From Nesterenkonia muleiensis (GTDB lineage: Bacteria > Actinomycetota > Actinomycetes > Actinomycetales > Micrococcaceae), in assembly GCF_003600155.1 (NCBI RefSeq), contig NZ_QWLD01000048.1, positions 1 to 64,000 on the forward strand: a stretch of DNA of 64,000 nt, read 5' to 3'. The stretch's first letter is position 1; each line of letters begins with the position of its first letter. Shown here in pieces: positions 158 through 4,704 of this stretch. The position numbers were made by a program, and so were the translations under genes. The notes beneath the pieces were generated by a model that saw only the letters and a list, made by a program, of their open reading frames with translations, ran no database searches and was not told where the DNA came from.

Positions 158-1438
158 GTGAGCGAGCAAACCCCAGCGAGCCTGGAGTACCAGGGTCAGG
201 AACTTGAGCTACCAGTGGAGTCCGCCGTCGAGGGAAACGACGGGTTGAGCATCGCTCCGCTGCTGAAGAGCACCGGCGCGGTGACCTACGACCCCGGGTT
301 CATGAATACCGCCAATACGAAATCGGCGATCACCTACATCGACGGTGATGAGGGGATCCTGCGCTACCGCGGCTACCCCATCGAGCAGCTGGCGGAGAAG
401 TCGAACTTTCTCGAGGTGTCCTATCTGCTGATCTACGGTGAGCTGCCCACCCCGGCGCAGCTGGAAGAGTTCGACCACATCACTCGGCGGCACACTCTGC
501 TGCACGAGGAGCTGAAGAACTTCTTCTCAGGGTTCCCCAGGGATGCCCACCCCATGCCGGTGCTCTCCTCGGCGGTGTCGGCACTGTCGACCTACTACCC
601 GGACTCGCTGGACCCCTTCGACCCTGAGCATGTGGAGCGCTCAACCTACCGGCTGCTGGCCAAGCTGCCGACCATCGCCGCCTATGCGTACAAGAAATCG
701 GTGGGGCAGCCCATGCTGTACCCGGACAACAGCCTGAGTCTGGGCGAGAACTTCCTGCGCGGCTGCTTCGGGGTGCCCGCTGAGCCCTATGAGGTGGACC
801 CGGATGTGGCCAAGGCGCTAGATGTCCTGCTGATCCTGCATGCTGATCATGAGCAGAACTGCTCCACCTCCACCGTCCGGCTGGTCGGCTCGGCCCAGGC
901 CAACCTGTTCGCCTCCATCTCCGCAGGGGTCAACGCCCTCTACGGCCCGGCCCACGGCGGGGCGAACGAGGCGGTGCTGAAGATGCTGCGGCAGATCCAG
1001 GCCGGCGATGTCAGCCCCGAGGCCTTCATGGAGAAGGTCAAGAACAAGGAGGACGGGGTCCGACTGATGGGCTTCGGGCACCGTGTCTACAAGAACTACG
1101 ATCCGCGGGCGCGTGTGGTCAAGGGCATTGCCGATGACCTGCTGGCCAAGCTCGGCGGCGACGACGAGCTCTTCGACATCGCCCAGCGCCTCGAGCAGAA
1201 GGCTCTGGAGGATGATTACTTCATCGAGCGCAAGCTCTACCCGAATGTGGACTTCTACACCGGACTGATCTACAAGGCCATGGGCTTCCCGGAGAAGATG
1301 TTCACCGTGCTCTTCGCCCTAGGGCGGCTGCCCGGCTGGATCGCCCAGTGGCGGGAGATGATGGGGGATCGCACCACCAAGATCGGCCGCCCCCGGCAGA
1401 TCTACACCGGCTACCCCCAGCGCGACTACCCCGCCTGA
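158..1438 (+). CDS. gltA: Citrate synthase (type II)
   Basis: Condenses oxaloacetate and acetyl-CoA to citrate, the entry step of the TCA cycle, in the cytosol. The 426-residue product has the normal length of the hexameric-type bacterial enzyme. Visible active-site landmarks are the HADHEQN segment near residue 228, GPAHGGANE near residue 265 (catalytic His), GFGHRVYKNYDPR near residue 306, and NVDFYTG near residue 364 with the catalytic Asp. The GTG start is chosen because AAGGAG lies 5 nt upstream and the MSEQ N-terminus suits the family. It stands alone, with a palindromic repeat 98 nt after its stop. A methylcitrate synthase role is possible but no prp genes are nearby. Confidence 0.95.
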   Translation: MSEQTPASLEYQGQELELPVESAVEGNDGLSIAPLLKSTGAVTYDPGFMNTANTKSAITYIDGDEGILRYRGYPIEQLAEKSNFLEVSYLLIYGELPTPAQLEEFDHITRRHTLLHEELKNFFSGFPRDAHPMPVLSSAVSALSTYYPDSLDPFDPEHVERSTYRLLAKLPTIAAYAYKKSVGQPMLYPDNSLSLGENFLRGCFGVPAEPYEVDPDVAKALDVLLILHADHEQNCSTSTVRLVGSAQANLFASISAGVNALYGPAHGGANEAVLKMLRQIQAGDVSPEAFMEKVKNKEDGVRLMGFGHRVYKNYDPRARVVKGIADDLLAKLGGDDELFDIAQRLEQKALEDDYFIERKLYPNVDFYTGLIYKAMGFPEKMFTVLFALGRLPGWIAQWREMMGDRTTKIGRPRQIYTGYPQRDYPA

Positions 1439-1535
1439 GCCGCGAGCCCGGTTCTTGAGCCGCCGAGCCGCCGTCGTCCTGCCTGCGGTAGTCCCGGCCG
1501 CACGATGAAGGTCCGTCCTCGCCCTCCACAACAAT

Positions 1536-1602
1536 CGAGTGGCCGTTTCTGTCGCTAATTCATGCCTTTGAAGGCCGAATTAGCGACAGAACCGGCCACT
1601 CG
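1536..1602. repeat. Large palindromic element, copy 1
   Basis: A 26-nt arm at 1536-1561 pairs with 1577-1602 with one mismatch, around a 15-nt loop at 1562-1576. The loop holds a nested palindrome, GCCTT-TG-AAGGC. Arm ends carry GAGTGGCC and the inner part carries CGCTAATTC. A second copy with the same architecture lies at 3499-3563. The right arm ends only 18 nt before the deaminase start codon and immediately before its ribosome binding site, so as RNA it could influence translation. No T-tract follows, so it is not a standard terminator. Confidence 0.9.
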
Positions 1603-1620
1603 GCGAAGGAGGTGGCCCGA

Positions 1621-2339
1621 ATGATGCCGAACGGAATCGAGCAGCGGGTCATCGAGGCCGCCGAGGAACTGGCCCGTGCCCTTGGCGCCGACCCCAATCA
1701 CACGGTGGCCGCGGCCGCGCTGGACACTCAAGGACGGCTGCACACGGCGGTGAACGTCTACCATTTCACCGGCGGCCCCTGCGCAGAGCTCGTGACGTTA
1801 GGCGTGGCTGCTACTGCAGGCGCTGGACCACTGGTGGCCATTGCCGCTGCCGGGGATGAGGGCCGCGGACTCATCCCGCCCTGCGGGCGCTGCCGCCAGG
1901 CGCTGCTGGACCTGCACCCGGACGTTCTGGTCGCAGTGCCCACAGAGAACGGACCACAGATGCGGCCCATCCGCAAGCTGCTGCCTGATACGTACTTCTT
2001 CCCGGACGCCCAGGCGCAGCGCATACTTCGGTTTAACAAGCGTTACTACGATGCCGTGGCTTCAGACGCGAAGACCGTCACCATCCGCTACGACGAACTG
2101 GTGGCCGTCGGTCCGGCCATTTTCTATTTCGAGGACGACGACGCCCACGGGCCACTGCGCGGAACAGTCACTTCGGTGACTCCATACCCCCTGAATAGCC
2201 TCACCGTGGAGCAGGCACATCTGACTCCCGGCACCGCTTGGAGTCGCTCAAGGCGGGGCTCCGTGGGCATTACCCGGAGATGTCCGATGACGCCGTGGTT
2301 GATGTGGTCACTTTCATCGTTGAGCCGACGCAGCCCTGA
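1621..2339 (+). pseudogene. Cytidine deaminase-like protein fused to ASCH domain, frameshifted
   Basis: The first part reads as a zinc-dependent cytidine/blasticidin-type deaminase: GGPCAELV supplies the CAE motif near residue 55 and PPCGRCRQ the PCxxC motif near residue 90. From about residue 145 it resembles an ASCH domain (VTIRYDELVAVGPAIFYFED onwards). The frame is lost near 2220-2240: the expected C-terminus (ESLKAGLRGHYPEM ... FIVEP) continues in another frame and ends at TGA 2337-2339. This is a one-event lesion or a sequencing error. ATG 1621 is preferred over GTG 1612 because GAAGGAGG at 1605-1612 would otherwise abut the start codon. The gene converges on the nuclease-like gene at 2412. 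Substrate unknown, probably a (modified) cytidine or related base. Confidence 0.75.
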
Positions 2340-2411
2340 CGTTTCACCGGTTGATCGGTATGCCCGGGGTTCCTGGATTCGCGGCCGCCCCGCACTGAGC
2401 TGGAGTTCCGC

Positions 2412-3368
2412 TTATGGGCTCCAACCTTGGTGCAGCAGGGCGCGCCTGATCTTGGCGATGGCTCCGGTCCCGCCATTGCGCATATGCTCCCGGGTGATTC
2501 GTACCTCGGTCCAACCCAGCGCCTCAGTGCGCTCCTGACGGCGGATATCCTTGACCATCTGCTCCGGATCGCTGTGGTACTCCCAGCCCTCGTATTGGAT
2601 GGCGATCCGGTATTGCGGGATGCTCAGATCGGGTTGTACAACCCGCTTGCCCTGTTCATCGCGGATCCATGCATTGACCTCGGCCCGGGGGAATCCGGCC
2701 TTACCCATGTAGAAGCGCAGTCTGGTCTCCTGCGGTGAGTCGACGCCCTCCCGGCTGAGCTCCAAGGCCAGACGCGCGCCGACGATGCCCCGAGCGCTCC
2801 CGCGCCGATGAAGCGCCGCTTCGAGTTCTCGGCCGGATACCAGAGGCTGAGGGTCTTCACCGTACTCCGGCCGTCCGAGCCGTCGGCAGTGGTCGGCGTA
2901 GATCAAGGCTTCAAGCACAGTGCAGGAAAGGGCAACATCCACCCAGGTTCTCGCAGGGCTGGTGATCGGCAAGCCCTTGACCACCAGCTGGTCGGCTTCC
3001 GAGACGTGGCTTCGGTGCGCTGTGACCAGACCGGGACGCTTGATGCGTGAGCCAGCGGCTGGTGTGGTCACGTGAAACGGCGGTGCCAGTTCCTCCTGGA
3101 TGATTCCCCAGAGTGAGGCAGCCGTGTGATGGCTGACGAGGTGAGGTGTCCCACGGCACAGCGCCTCCAAAGTGGTCAGGTGCTGCTCCGCAGTGGTATC
3201 CCGTCGCGGAGCGTAGAGGCCACGAGCTGCTGAAAGGAGTTCTCCGGCGCGCCTGGCATGCCGGATCTCTCGCTGCATGAGCGTATCGCTGAGTTCCTTG
3301 TGCTGCATACCGCGGATCGGCAGTGGGTAGTCGCGCGGGCGTCGTCGTTGGAAGCGATACTGTGCCAT
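2412..3368 (-). CDS. DUF559 endonuclease-like protein with AbiEi-like N-terminal region
   Basis: A 318-residue protein of a family common in Actinobacteria. The N-terminal two thirds, with LLSAARGLYAPRR, LVSHHTAASLWGI and LPITSPARTWVDVA, resembles AbiEi-type antitoxin or transcription-regulator folds. The C-terminal ~110 residues form a Vsr-like PD-(D/E)xK nuclease domain (DUF559): SPQETRLRF gives a conserved Glu, VVQPDLSI the catalytic Asp, and YRIAIQYEGWEYH the following strand and acidic residue. No membrane segment is present. It converges on the deaminase pseudogene and is bounded upstream by the second palindrome (3499-3563). An internal start at the later Met (MQHKELSD) is possible. 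The nuclease fold is established family knowledge; activity and role are unproven. Confidence 0.8.
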   Translation of the reverse strand: MAQYRFQRRRPRDYPLPIRGMQHKELSDTLMQREIRHARRAGELLSAARGLYAPRRDTTAEQHLTTLEALCRGTPHLVSHHTAASLWGIIQEELAPPFHVTTPAAGSRIKRPGLVTAHRSHVSEADQLVVKGLPITSPARTWVDVALSCTVLEALIYADHCRRLGRPEYGEDPQPLVSGRELEAALHRRGSARGIVGARLALELSREGVDSPQETRLRFYMGKAGFPRAEVNAWIRDEQGKRVVQPDLSIPQYRIAIQYEGWEYHSDPEQMVKDIRRQERTEALGWTEVRITREHMRNGGTGAIAKIRRALLHQGWSP

Positions 3369-3498
3369 GTATCTGTGATCTCACGATTCAGCTGGGAGCA
3401 GGAGTGCTGGAGAGATATCTGTGGAGAACCCGGCGCGTCGTGATGCTCAACGGTGAGCTTGTGGAGAAGGTTGCGCGGCTTCTAGGACGCACCTCGTT

Positions 3499-3563
3499 GA
3501 CTGGCCGCGTGGGACGCTAATTCATCTCTTTTCGGCGCGAATTAGCGTCCCACGCGGCCAGTC
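3499..3563. repeat. Large palindromic element, copy 2
   Basis: Perfect 25-nt arms at 3499-3523 and 3539-3563 enclose a 15-nt loop (3524-3538), the same loop size as copy 1 at 1536-1602. The outer TGGCCG and inner CGCTAATTC blocks match copy 1. The 7 nt between them differ (CGTGGGA against TTTCTGT), and the other arm changes in step to preserve pairing. It lies about 130 nt upstream of the DUF559 gene start, so the two copies bracket the deaminase/nuclease pair. Confidence 0.92.
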
Positions 3564-3606
3564 GATGGGAGGGAAAGGGGAGGGTGGCGCTGGTGTGATG
3601 CCCCGC

Positions 3607-4704
3607 TCAGCTCTCGCGGGTGAAGCCGATCAGGACAGTGCCGCTGGGGGTCGCTGCCCCAGCCTCTTCATCAAGGCGGTTCCAGCGCGCGGAGTCACGG
3701 TCCCACCGGTAGGGGGCCGAGGTCACGGACTGAATGCCATAGTCCCGGGCGGCGGTAATAGCCCAGTGGGCGAGCATCCACTGGTAGTCGGAGGCGCCGT
3801 CGGACTCTGGCAGCGCCACGTAGACCAGAGGCTCTCCGTCCGCCTCGGTGACCTCGATGATCCCTTCAAGAATGGGTTCGGGGACGAATTCCTCGCCGTC
3901 CTCATCGTCTCCGTTCTCCCCGTCCTCCTCGGGTGCGGTGAACGGGATGTCAAGGGCGCGGGGCAGCACACTGGCCAGCTCATCGGCTACGCCGCTGGGA
4001 TCCGGCCCGGGAACCTCCAGCTGAGAGATGTAGCACGTCATGTCCGGCCCTCCGGTCTGCCCGGTCAGCGGCCATGCGAAAGCCTGAGCCATAGAGCTGT
4101 GGCGGGGGTAGAACTGTGGGTTGTGCGGGCGCTGCAGGATCTCGGCCGTCTCATCCAGCGGCATGTCCGGATTCCAGAAAGTCTCCTCCTCCGACTCGGA
4201 GTCCTCACCGCTGTCCTCATCATCCTCTTCCTCATGGCCTGCGTTCCAGGAGTCCTCCAAGACGTCGAAGAATCCGTCGACGGTCACCGCCACCTGCTGC
4301 ACCTCGGAGCCGGAGCTCCAGTCGGGGGCTCCCCGGGCGAAGAGCACGTGCTCCCCGGGGGCCTCGCCGGCCTCGCGGAGGGCCAGCTCAGTCTCCTGCA
4401 GCGAGATGGCCAGGGCGTGCACGGCAGCCTCTGGAGGAAGGCCGCGGTCCACCGATGAGGCCGCGAGCACCGCGGCGTGATGCGCCCGGTTCGGGGGCAG
4501 CTCGTGAACGTCCTCGCCGACGGCCACCTCGCAGCGTTCGTCGAGAAGAAACTCGTTCTCCTCGATGTACTGCCAGGTGCCGTAGGAGGCTCCTGCCACC
4601 AGCGCTGTGGTCACACCGAGGGCGACCAACGCCCGGCGTCGCCTCTTGCGCCGGGCCACAGGCCGGGTGGTCACCGTATTCCGGCTTGTGCGGAAGGGGG
4701 TCAT
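3607..4704 (-). CDS. Membrane-anchored extracytoplasmic protein, unknown function
   Basis: The 365-residue product begins with a basic stretch (RRKRRRR near residue 20) followed by one hydrophobic segment (ALVALGVTTALVAGASYGTW, about residues 25-45). This predicts a type II anchored protein with the bulk outside the cell. The outer part is acidic, with a DEEDDEDSGEDSESEEE-like tract near residue 185. The segment ASSVDRGLPPEAAVHALAIS resembles what is seen in related hypothetical proteins of Micrococcaceae, sometimes labelled heavy metal transporter without support. It starts 8 nt after the dapD stop on the same strand, so the two are probably cotranscribed. No catalytic motif is recognised. 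Confidence 0.75.
   Translation of the reverse strand: MTPFRTSRNTVTTRPVARRKRRRRALVALGVTTALVAGASYGTWQYIEENEFLLDERCEVAVGEDVHELPPNRAHHAAVLAASSVDRGLPPEAAVHALAISLQETELALREAGEAPGEHVLFARGAPDWSSGSEVQQVAVTVDGFFDVLEDSWNAGHEEEDDEDSGEDSESEEETFWNPDMPLDETAEILQRPHNPQFYPRHSSMAQAFAWPLTGQTGGPDMTCYISQLEVPGPDPSGVADELASVLPRALDIPFTAPEEDGENGDDEDGEEFVPEPILEGIIEVTEADGEPLVYVALPESDGASDYQWMLAHWAITAARDYGIQSVTSAPYRWDRDSARWNRLDEEAGAATPSGTVLIGFTRES

Follow-up and report, generated by a model that had tools for sequence, protein, structure and literature searches.

The stretch of DNA analysed here, called the window throughout, comprises the first 64,000 nt of a contig of Nesterenkonia muleiensis and carries near its start two large palindromes and three genes, arranged as follows.

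158–1438, + strand: gltA (citrate synthase), the neighbouring gene, used as orthologous anchor and as control gene
1536–1602, + strand: palindrome copy 1, arms 1536–1561 and 1577–1602 (26 nt, one mismatch, 96% complementary), loop of 15 nt
1621–2339, + strand: cytidine-deaminase-like gene, between palindrome 1 and the nuclease gene
2412–3368, – strand: nuclease gene, 318 amino acids, with profile matches and with homologs that are bracketed by palindromes
residues ~31–158 of the nuclease: AbiEi-like region, from profile models
residues ~210–311 of the nuclease: Vsr-type nuclease region (DUF559/MTES_1575), from profile models
3495–3567, + strand: palindrome copy 2, core arms 3499–3523 and 3539–3563 (25 nt, 100% complementary), loop of 15 nt

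The two palindromes had been proposed in a preliminary description of the sequence and are borne out both by an inverted-repeat search, in which copies 1 and 2 rank first and second among the 21 short-range inverted repeats of the window, and by single-strand DNA folding, in which they reach z-scores of –11.3 and –9.9 against 200 shuffles each, none of the shuffles being equally stable. The stem of copy 2 can be extended by two wobble pairs to 3495–3567, which is a weak extension, and its tips read CGTTGAC/GTCGATG. Two instances of the pattern CGCTAATTC-N(5-30)-GAATTAGCG are present in the window, where 0.00 would be expected. The same description was right that these are not ordinary terminators: no T-tract follows either hairpin, and a terminator scan of positions 1400–3700 returned a single site, located elsewhere. 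No Rfam family matches the window palindromes at its gathering score, and related copies gave only sub-threshold matches, to unrelated microRNA families. Copy 2 stands on the 5′ side of the nuclease gene, whose start lies about 130 nt away. Copy 1 is taken as the partner of the nuclease on its 3′ side, pushed away from the gene by the deaminase-like gene, and the latter is read as an accessory insertion because there is no room for such a gene at the same place in three other genomes of the genus (G005, G007 and G024).

The two regions of the nuclease, a probable DNA-cutting enzyme, are assigned from profile models of differing strength. PF18741 matches the window protein at E 8e-8 and 32.6 bits, which is significant though under the curated cut-off of 38.2, and TIGR00632 at E 0.1; PADLOC AbiEi models match the N-terminal part in the four proteins scanned, with best E-values of 3e-12 to 3e-14, and the Pfam AbiEi_1 match lies under its cut-off. 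Four residues (D210, E214, D247 and H265) are invariant in all 26 aligned nuclease proteins; they are active-site-like and would be the catalytic ones. A search of solved structures with the nuclease returned no significant match, and prediction from the single nuclease sequence gave no usable model (mean pLDDT 38.5). The gene is under purifying selection, with dN/dS of 0.11–0.30 in seven diverged pairs, three of which have dS ≥1, and with five synonymous and zero non-synonymous changes in a near-identical pair (L171/L172). When distant homologs are counted, the nuclease is present in 28 of the 30 genomes of the genus set, which includes the own genome, G000. A profile of it scores in 118 of the 149 genomes searched from the family, where several homologs per genome are frequent (up to 13 matches in one), and in 91 of the 296 searched from the phylum. 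Plasmids and phages seldom carry a close relative, which was found in 6 of 72,556 plasmid records and in 1 of 50,697 for phages.

In eight genomes of the genus a nuclease lies within 1.5 kb of gltA, with palindrome types that vary; the gltA-linked nucleases of G010 and G014 have no palindrome above threshold. Elsewhere in the genus, the gltA locus carries a palindrome and no nuclease in nine sister genomes, and other hairpins or none in the other 13. Hairpins also lie near the other nuclease homologs of this genome (L382–L384), with no matching pairs resolved. A TPP riboswitch (Rfam RF00059; L132, 910–1033, – strand) adjoins the palindrome–nuclease locus of G008.

The window palindromes define a repeat type, R1, whose exact inner motif occurs a third time elsewhere in the genome, with a degenerate fourth copy adjoining. 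The R1 covariance model was built from four sequences, the two window copies and two from elsewhere in the genome. The preliminary description had proposed such a search and had left room for two chance hairpins, with no further copies and no conservation in relatives; that possibility fails, since a dispersed family with covariation exists. With this model, 10 places are found in G000, among them the four from which it was built, at E-values of 2.6e-17 to 2.3e-6 for the better strand; at E ≤0.01 it has matches in 15 of the 30 genus genomes, own included, or 14 of the 29 others, several of them with one weak match only. Because 150 first-look candidates were scored per genome, the counts of distinct places are lower bounds: at least 10 in G000, 9 in G005, 7 in G008, 6 in G025, 5 in G024 and 3 in G007, and 0–2 in each of the remaining 24 genomes. 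The exact inner motif is found in one of 98 genomes searched, its own, so that the family is visible by the covariance model only; the bare inner motif was tried as a family probe and rejected as too loose, with at least 115 stretches in many phyla, and no evidence was drawn from it.

Close hairpin pairs in G024, G007 and G008 enclose a gene like the one enclosed by the window pair, and two other pairs enclose other genes. mnmA, with tRNA methyltransferase-type domains, lies between two R1 palindromes at L003 1484–3013 (G000:C50), with no nuclease there, and in G011 a palindrome pair encloses another, non-nuclease gene. Beside some copies (L139, L144, L188 and L199), outer-end pieces of the palindrome are tandemly repeated.

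The surroundings of the nuclease were surveyed at 53 loci, 30 from the genus and 23 from the family outside it (L284–L306), which are best matches rather than a random sample and among which sister species are not independent; a palindrome was counted on each side when it measured at least 50 nt and lay within 450 nt of the nuclease. Palindromes stand on both sides at 34 loci, on at least one side at 43 and on neither at 10, compared with 2 palindromes in equal-sized control zones 1 kb off, and when the 53 loci were counted again from reading frames, 33 proved two-sided and 43 had a palindrome on at least one side. At 33 of the 34 two-sided loci the left and right palindromes have four or more 8-mers in common, against 132 of 1122 comparisons between loci. 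The 3′ palindrome starts a median of 3.5 nt past the nuclease stop (n = 38, range –35 to 196), some overlapping the gene end, and the 5′ palindrome ends a median of 52.5 nt before the nuclease start (n = 38, starts being approximate). The window locus is itself one-sided by the 450-nt rule, because palindrome 1 lies 814 nt from the stop of the nuclease, with the deaminase-like gene in the gap. Among phylum-level loci, counted under a laxer limit of 40 nt, 5 of 28 have palindromes on both sides, 9 on one side and 14 on neither, with one palindrome in the control zones. Six matches came from the plasmid collection, and five named records were inspected: both sides are occupied in three (Arthrobacter sp. 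ERGS1:01, Arthrobacter sp. StoSoilB13 plasmid 2 and Tsukamurella tyrosinosolvens plasmid 12), one side is occupied in Arthrobacter sp. StoSoilB13 plasmid 1, and T. tyrosinosolvens plasmid 9 has no matching pair. What is shown is that the nuclease and the palindromes are associated; that the nuclease recognises, cuts and mobilises the palindromes is what we infer.

Single or paired palindromes also stand by some distant homologs in other families (phylum-level loci L356–L375), with arm sequences that are different again. Across differing types, the tips CRTYGA/TCRAYG recur among the 77 nuclease-flanking palindromes (left 25, right 28, either 38), compared with 15 of 1060 random 14-nt stretches; they are possibly a recognition or cleavage motif.

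The positions of the palindromes can also be read in terms of transcription, the palindromes being terminators or mRNA 3′-end hairpins without a U-tract, by which the nuclease is insulated on both sides by chance and whose arms are conserved via a bound factor or by repeated copying of a good terminator. The hairpins are indeed very stable, one of 30 palindrome copies lies between divergent genes (according to a crude codon-bias gene caller, with 8 of the 30 loci, the divergent one included, flagged for overlap with a reading frame of doubtful value), and what follows orthologous gltA genes varies, being a palindrome in some, a short ordinary hairpin in others and neither in the rest. However, a lineage-specific sequence and a two-sided match round one type of gene are not expected of ordinary terminators, the 5′ palindrome stands upstream of the nuclease start, the gltA control has palindromes on one side at 15 of 29 loci and on both sides at none, and the window copies lack a T-tract; we therefore consider this explanation unlikely. 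Since palindromes often occupy terminator places, as at those 15 gltA loci, their conservation may be due in part to a function for the host; a terminator or 3′-end function of individual copies is likely a by-product, and the terminator role of the palindromes is probably secondary.

The promoters of AbiEi genes contain inverted repeats to which the AbiEi proteins themselves bind, and the N-terminal matches to AbiEi models would suit palindromes that serve the AbiEi-like domain as operator or regulon sites, for autoregulation, with the scattered sites regulatory or decoy and with the nuclease a defence or toxin-like effector. This is distinctly unlikely in our view: unlike operators, one palindrome of the pair lies at or just past the stop codon and the scattered copies avoid divergent promoter regions (by the same crude gene calls), and a scan of the window genes with Pfam revealed no AbiEii-type nucleotidyltransferase partner.

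The sequence of the palindromes was further compared with the relatedness of the nucleases. Palindromes are alike in 9 of 9 locus pairs with nuclease identity of at least 80% and in 38 of 40 at 60–80%, and in 32 of 143 at 45–60%, 55 of 281 at 35–45% and 48 of 430 below 35%, a comparison in which shared ancestry of loci and species is not separated from co-evolution; the leaf order of the nuclease tree likewise puts like palindrome types together. Three palindrome types were searched for dispersed copies and all three are dispersed. R1 is present in at least three places in 6 of the 30 genus genomes, five of which have a nuclease bracketed by R1, the sixth being G025. The CGTTGAGSGGCGGATTCT type, R2 (model from 24 sequences, 150 candidates scored per genome), gives 30–54 strand matches, corresponding to about 15–27 places as lower bounds, in each of nine sister genomes; outside these nine, at most 18 strand matches per genome were found among the candidates scored, and none in 11 of the 30. 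The third type, searched as TGCTCCGTA-N(14-40)-TACGGAGCA, occurs 1–11 times in 9 of 31 chosen family genomes, the reversed control pattern giving 0 occurrences in the same 31, and in the genomes with this pattern the nuclease is bracketed by the same type in G135, G185, G197, G038 and G112 and by a near-variant in G047, G154 and G105, these eight of the nine being the ones examined. Many palindromes are kept without a close intact nuclease in G022 and G023, where the bit scores of the matches listed are capped and, as to palindrome decay after nuclease loss, mixed, and without a matching nuclease at the sister's site in G025.

The preliminary description had noticed that changes in one arm are compensated in the other, and this holds beyond the window: the arm middles of the two window copies differ and the opposite arms follow, and of the 26 pairs of the four-copy R1 set, 6 have changed in both arms, a number that falls to 0–3 if the partner column is slid. 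For R2, changes on both sides affect 7 of 28 pairs, a count that 153 of 500 shuffles reach, but the covariation score and the cells paired exceed all 500 shuffles. Among 21 distinct TGCTCCGTA elements, the pair at position 14 is T-A in 10 and C-G in 10, and at one orthologous site both arms have been swapped together, being GAGCGG...CCGCTC in G011, GAGGGG...CCCCTC in G012 and G018, and mixed in G016. Pairing between the arms is therefore maintained. The preliminary description attributed this to selection on the folded hairpin, which may be the cause; a function as RNA, the copying of palindromes from templates that are intact, or the correction of one arm by the other may explain the pairing equally well.

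Palindrome presence differs between sister genomes at all four sites that were aligned, of six queried, G023 being ambiguous at site 1. No clean insertion junction is readable at these four polymorphic sites, because the flanks of the empty alleles have been reworked. In G025 a solo palindrome stands where the sister genome G008 has palindrome, nuclease and palindrome; over 78 positions the solo copy, which is oriented alike, agrees with one G008 copy at 73 and with the other at 74, and the unit may have been gained in G008 or lost in G025. A single palindrome with nuclease fragments is found in G022 where its sisters hold the unit, and the nuclease of G019 is disrupted. For target-site duplications, 55 R2-type and 27 TGCTCC-type elements gave no clear excess over swapped flanks at k of 2–7, the largest direct-repeat excess being 3 against 0.6 expected (R2, k = 3). 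At another place, the R2 pair in L257 (G012:C3) encloses a small gene where L272 (G018:C38) has one palindrome, a cassette-like gain or loss.

Dispersed, palindromic and present or absent between sister genomes, the palindromes could pass for minimal MITEs moved by a conventional transposase, DDE or Y1, with the nuclease as a passenger, which we find very improbable: there is no clear target-site duplication, the Y1 HUH transposase (PF01797) has no match in this genome and is found in one of the 30 genus genomes, and matching lineage-specific pairs recur round the nuclease at 34 of 53 loci. It is somewhat more conceivable, and still quite unlikely, that the palindromes spread by homologous or template-switch recombination and that genes become trapped between two of them as cassettes, the nuclease among several such genes. 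Such trapping would accommodate the pairs that enclose mnmA (G000), another gene (G011) and the small gene of G012 that is absent from G018, as well as the solo versus bracketed site of G025 and G008, but the nuclease is bracketed far more regularly than gltA, the one control gene, and a palindrome lies close to its stop.

The preliminary description had missed the nuclease gene between the two palindromes. At most loci, homologs of this gene have matching palindromes of their own on either side, which points to a RAYT-like system that acts on DNA. We favour, with moderate confidence, a system of this kind built on a different enzyme, in which the nuclease recognises its own palindrome and spreads or maintains it; the hairpins are rather probably REP-like non-autonomous palindromic repeats, whose partner is the nuclease gene between the copies. 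The unit would consist of a palindrome, a short upstream region with the presumed promoter, the nuclease and a second palindrome, with further solo palindromes scattered between genes. The AbiEi-like region would bind the palindrome of its own lineage, as duplex or as extruded hairpin, and the Vsr-type domain would cut at the bound palindrome. Repair or strand transfer would then copy the palindrome into a new intergenic place without target duplication, or would restore damaged copies. Such a chain of binding, cutting and copying would lead each nuclease lineage to co-evolve with its own palindrome, as RAYT/TnpA_REP do with REPs. Several observations stand against this explanation: no palindrome is found on either side at 10 of 53 loci and, at phylum level, at 14 of 28; palindromes persist in G022, G023 and G025 without a close or matching nuclease; some pairs enclose other genes (mnmA in G000 and one in G011); and copy numbers are low for REPs, with a nuclease that is multi-copy, unlike RAYTs.

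Many related bacteria share this arrangement, each with a palindrome sequence of its own, which suggests a selfish repeat that has an enzyme dedicated to it and is of a kind not described before. To our knowledge, such nucleases, which are common in Actinobacteria, have no established function, and the palindrome beside the gene amounts to a direct substrate prediction, lineage by lineage. The wider proposal, which in our estimation could equally turn out right or wrong, is that of a widespread actinobacterial replicator, convergent with RAYT/REPIN, in which an AbiEi-like Vsr-type nuclease recognises, propagates and repairs its own palindrome and the lineages co-diversify; if true, this would be a second, independently evolved way for a chromosomal enzyme to sustain an intragenomic palindrome population. 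It would also offer a testable mechanism by which palindromes could evolve in a compensatory way, with RNA not necessarily involved. No link between DUF559/MTES_1575/AbiEi-Vsr proteins and palindromes was found in the full-text literature searched, a body outside which bioRxiv and most subscription papers lie and within which PMC3733652, PMC3116915, PMC8266576 and PMC3710099 were consulted.

Among known systems, the MITEs of DDE transposons are likewise short, dispersed, palindromic and non-autonomous; unlike them, the repeats described here have no clear target-site duplication, a nuclease as their regular partner gene and no related transposase among those searched for (Y1). Integron attC sites are long imperfect palindromes with a variable middle that lie next to genes, and the likeness to them is one of form, extending to long palindromes, a variable middle and adjoining genes that are present or absent between copies. 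The likeness to the AbiE type IV toxin-antitoxin system lies in matches of the N-terminal half to AbiEi models, that to Pfam AbiEi_1 being under its cut-off; unlike in AbiE, the AbiEi-like region is joined to a nuclease domain and has no AbiEii partner at the window locus. MTES_1575 (PF18741) has been presented as a novel Vsr-type REase domain and placed in a large HEPN fusion protein, palindromes being unmentioned in the part of that source available (PMC3710099). The nuclease belongs to the same domain class as MTES_1575/DUF559 proteins by a weak profile match, with active-site-like residues conserved; unlike the MTES_1575 domain as described there, the domain here is joined to an AbiEi-like region and has repeats on both sides.

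The closest likeness is to the REPtrons formed by REP and TnpA_REP (RAYT) and to REPINs, so far as the accessible portions of PMC3116915 and PMC8266576 describe them. There as here, a gene is bordered by palindromes, and palindromes of the same type, lineage-specific in sequence, are dispersed between genes. The bordering of the enzyme gene by palindromes of its own type is found at 34 of 53 loci, and at the window locus only if the palindrome at 814 nt is counted; many same-type copies lie between genes, in 10 places in G000, about 15–27 in the nine sister genomes and 1–11 in 9 of 31 family genomes. The gene is mainly chromosomal in both, no clear target duplications were found here, and the fixed locus and the scarcity on mobile DNA observed here resemble what they say of RAYTs. 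As to differences from the same partial accounts, the REPtron enzyme is a Y1 HUH transposase, to which the AbiEi-like and Vsr-type nuclease is unrelated; the palindromes here are mostly 50–85 nt with arms of up to about 30 bp, and REPs about 20–60 bp; and copy numbers of about 3–27 (lower bounds) are low for REPs, with a nuclease that is often multi-copy, unlike RAYTs. Since this genome has no Y1 transposase and the outer tips of both window copies, on inspection, carry neither the GTAG nor the CGTC tetranucleotide of REPs, the palindromes and their nuclease are filed apart from REPtrons, as a separate system working like one, and they provide a non-HUH comparison for how REP sequences spread and why they persist.
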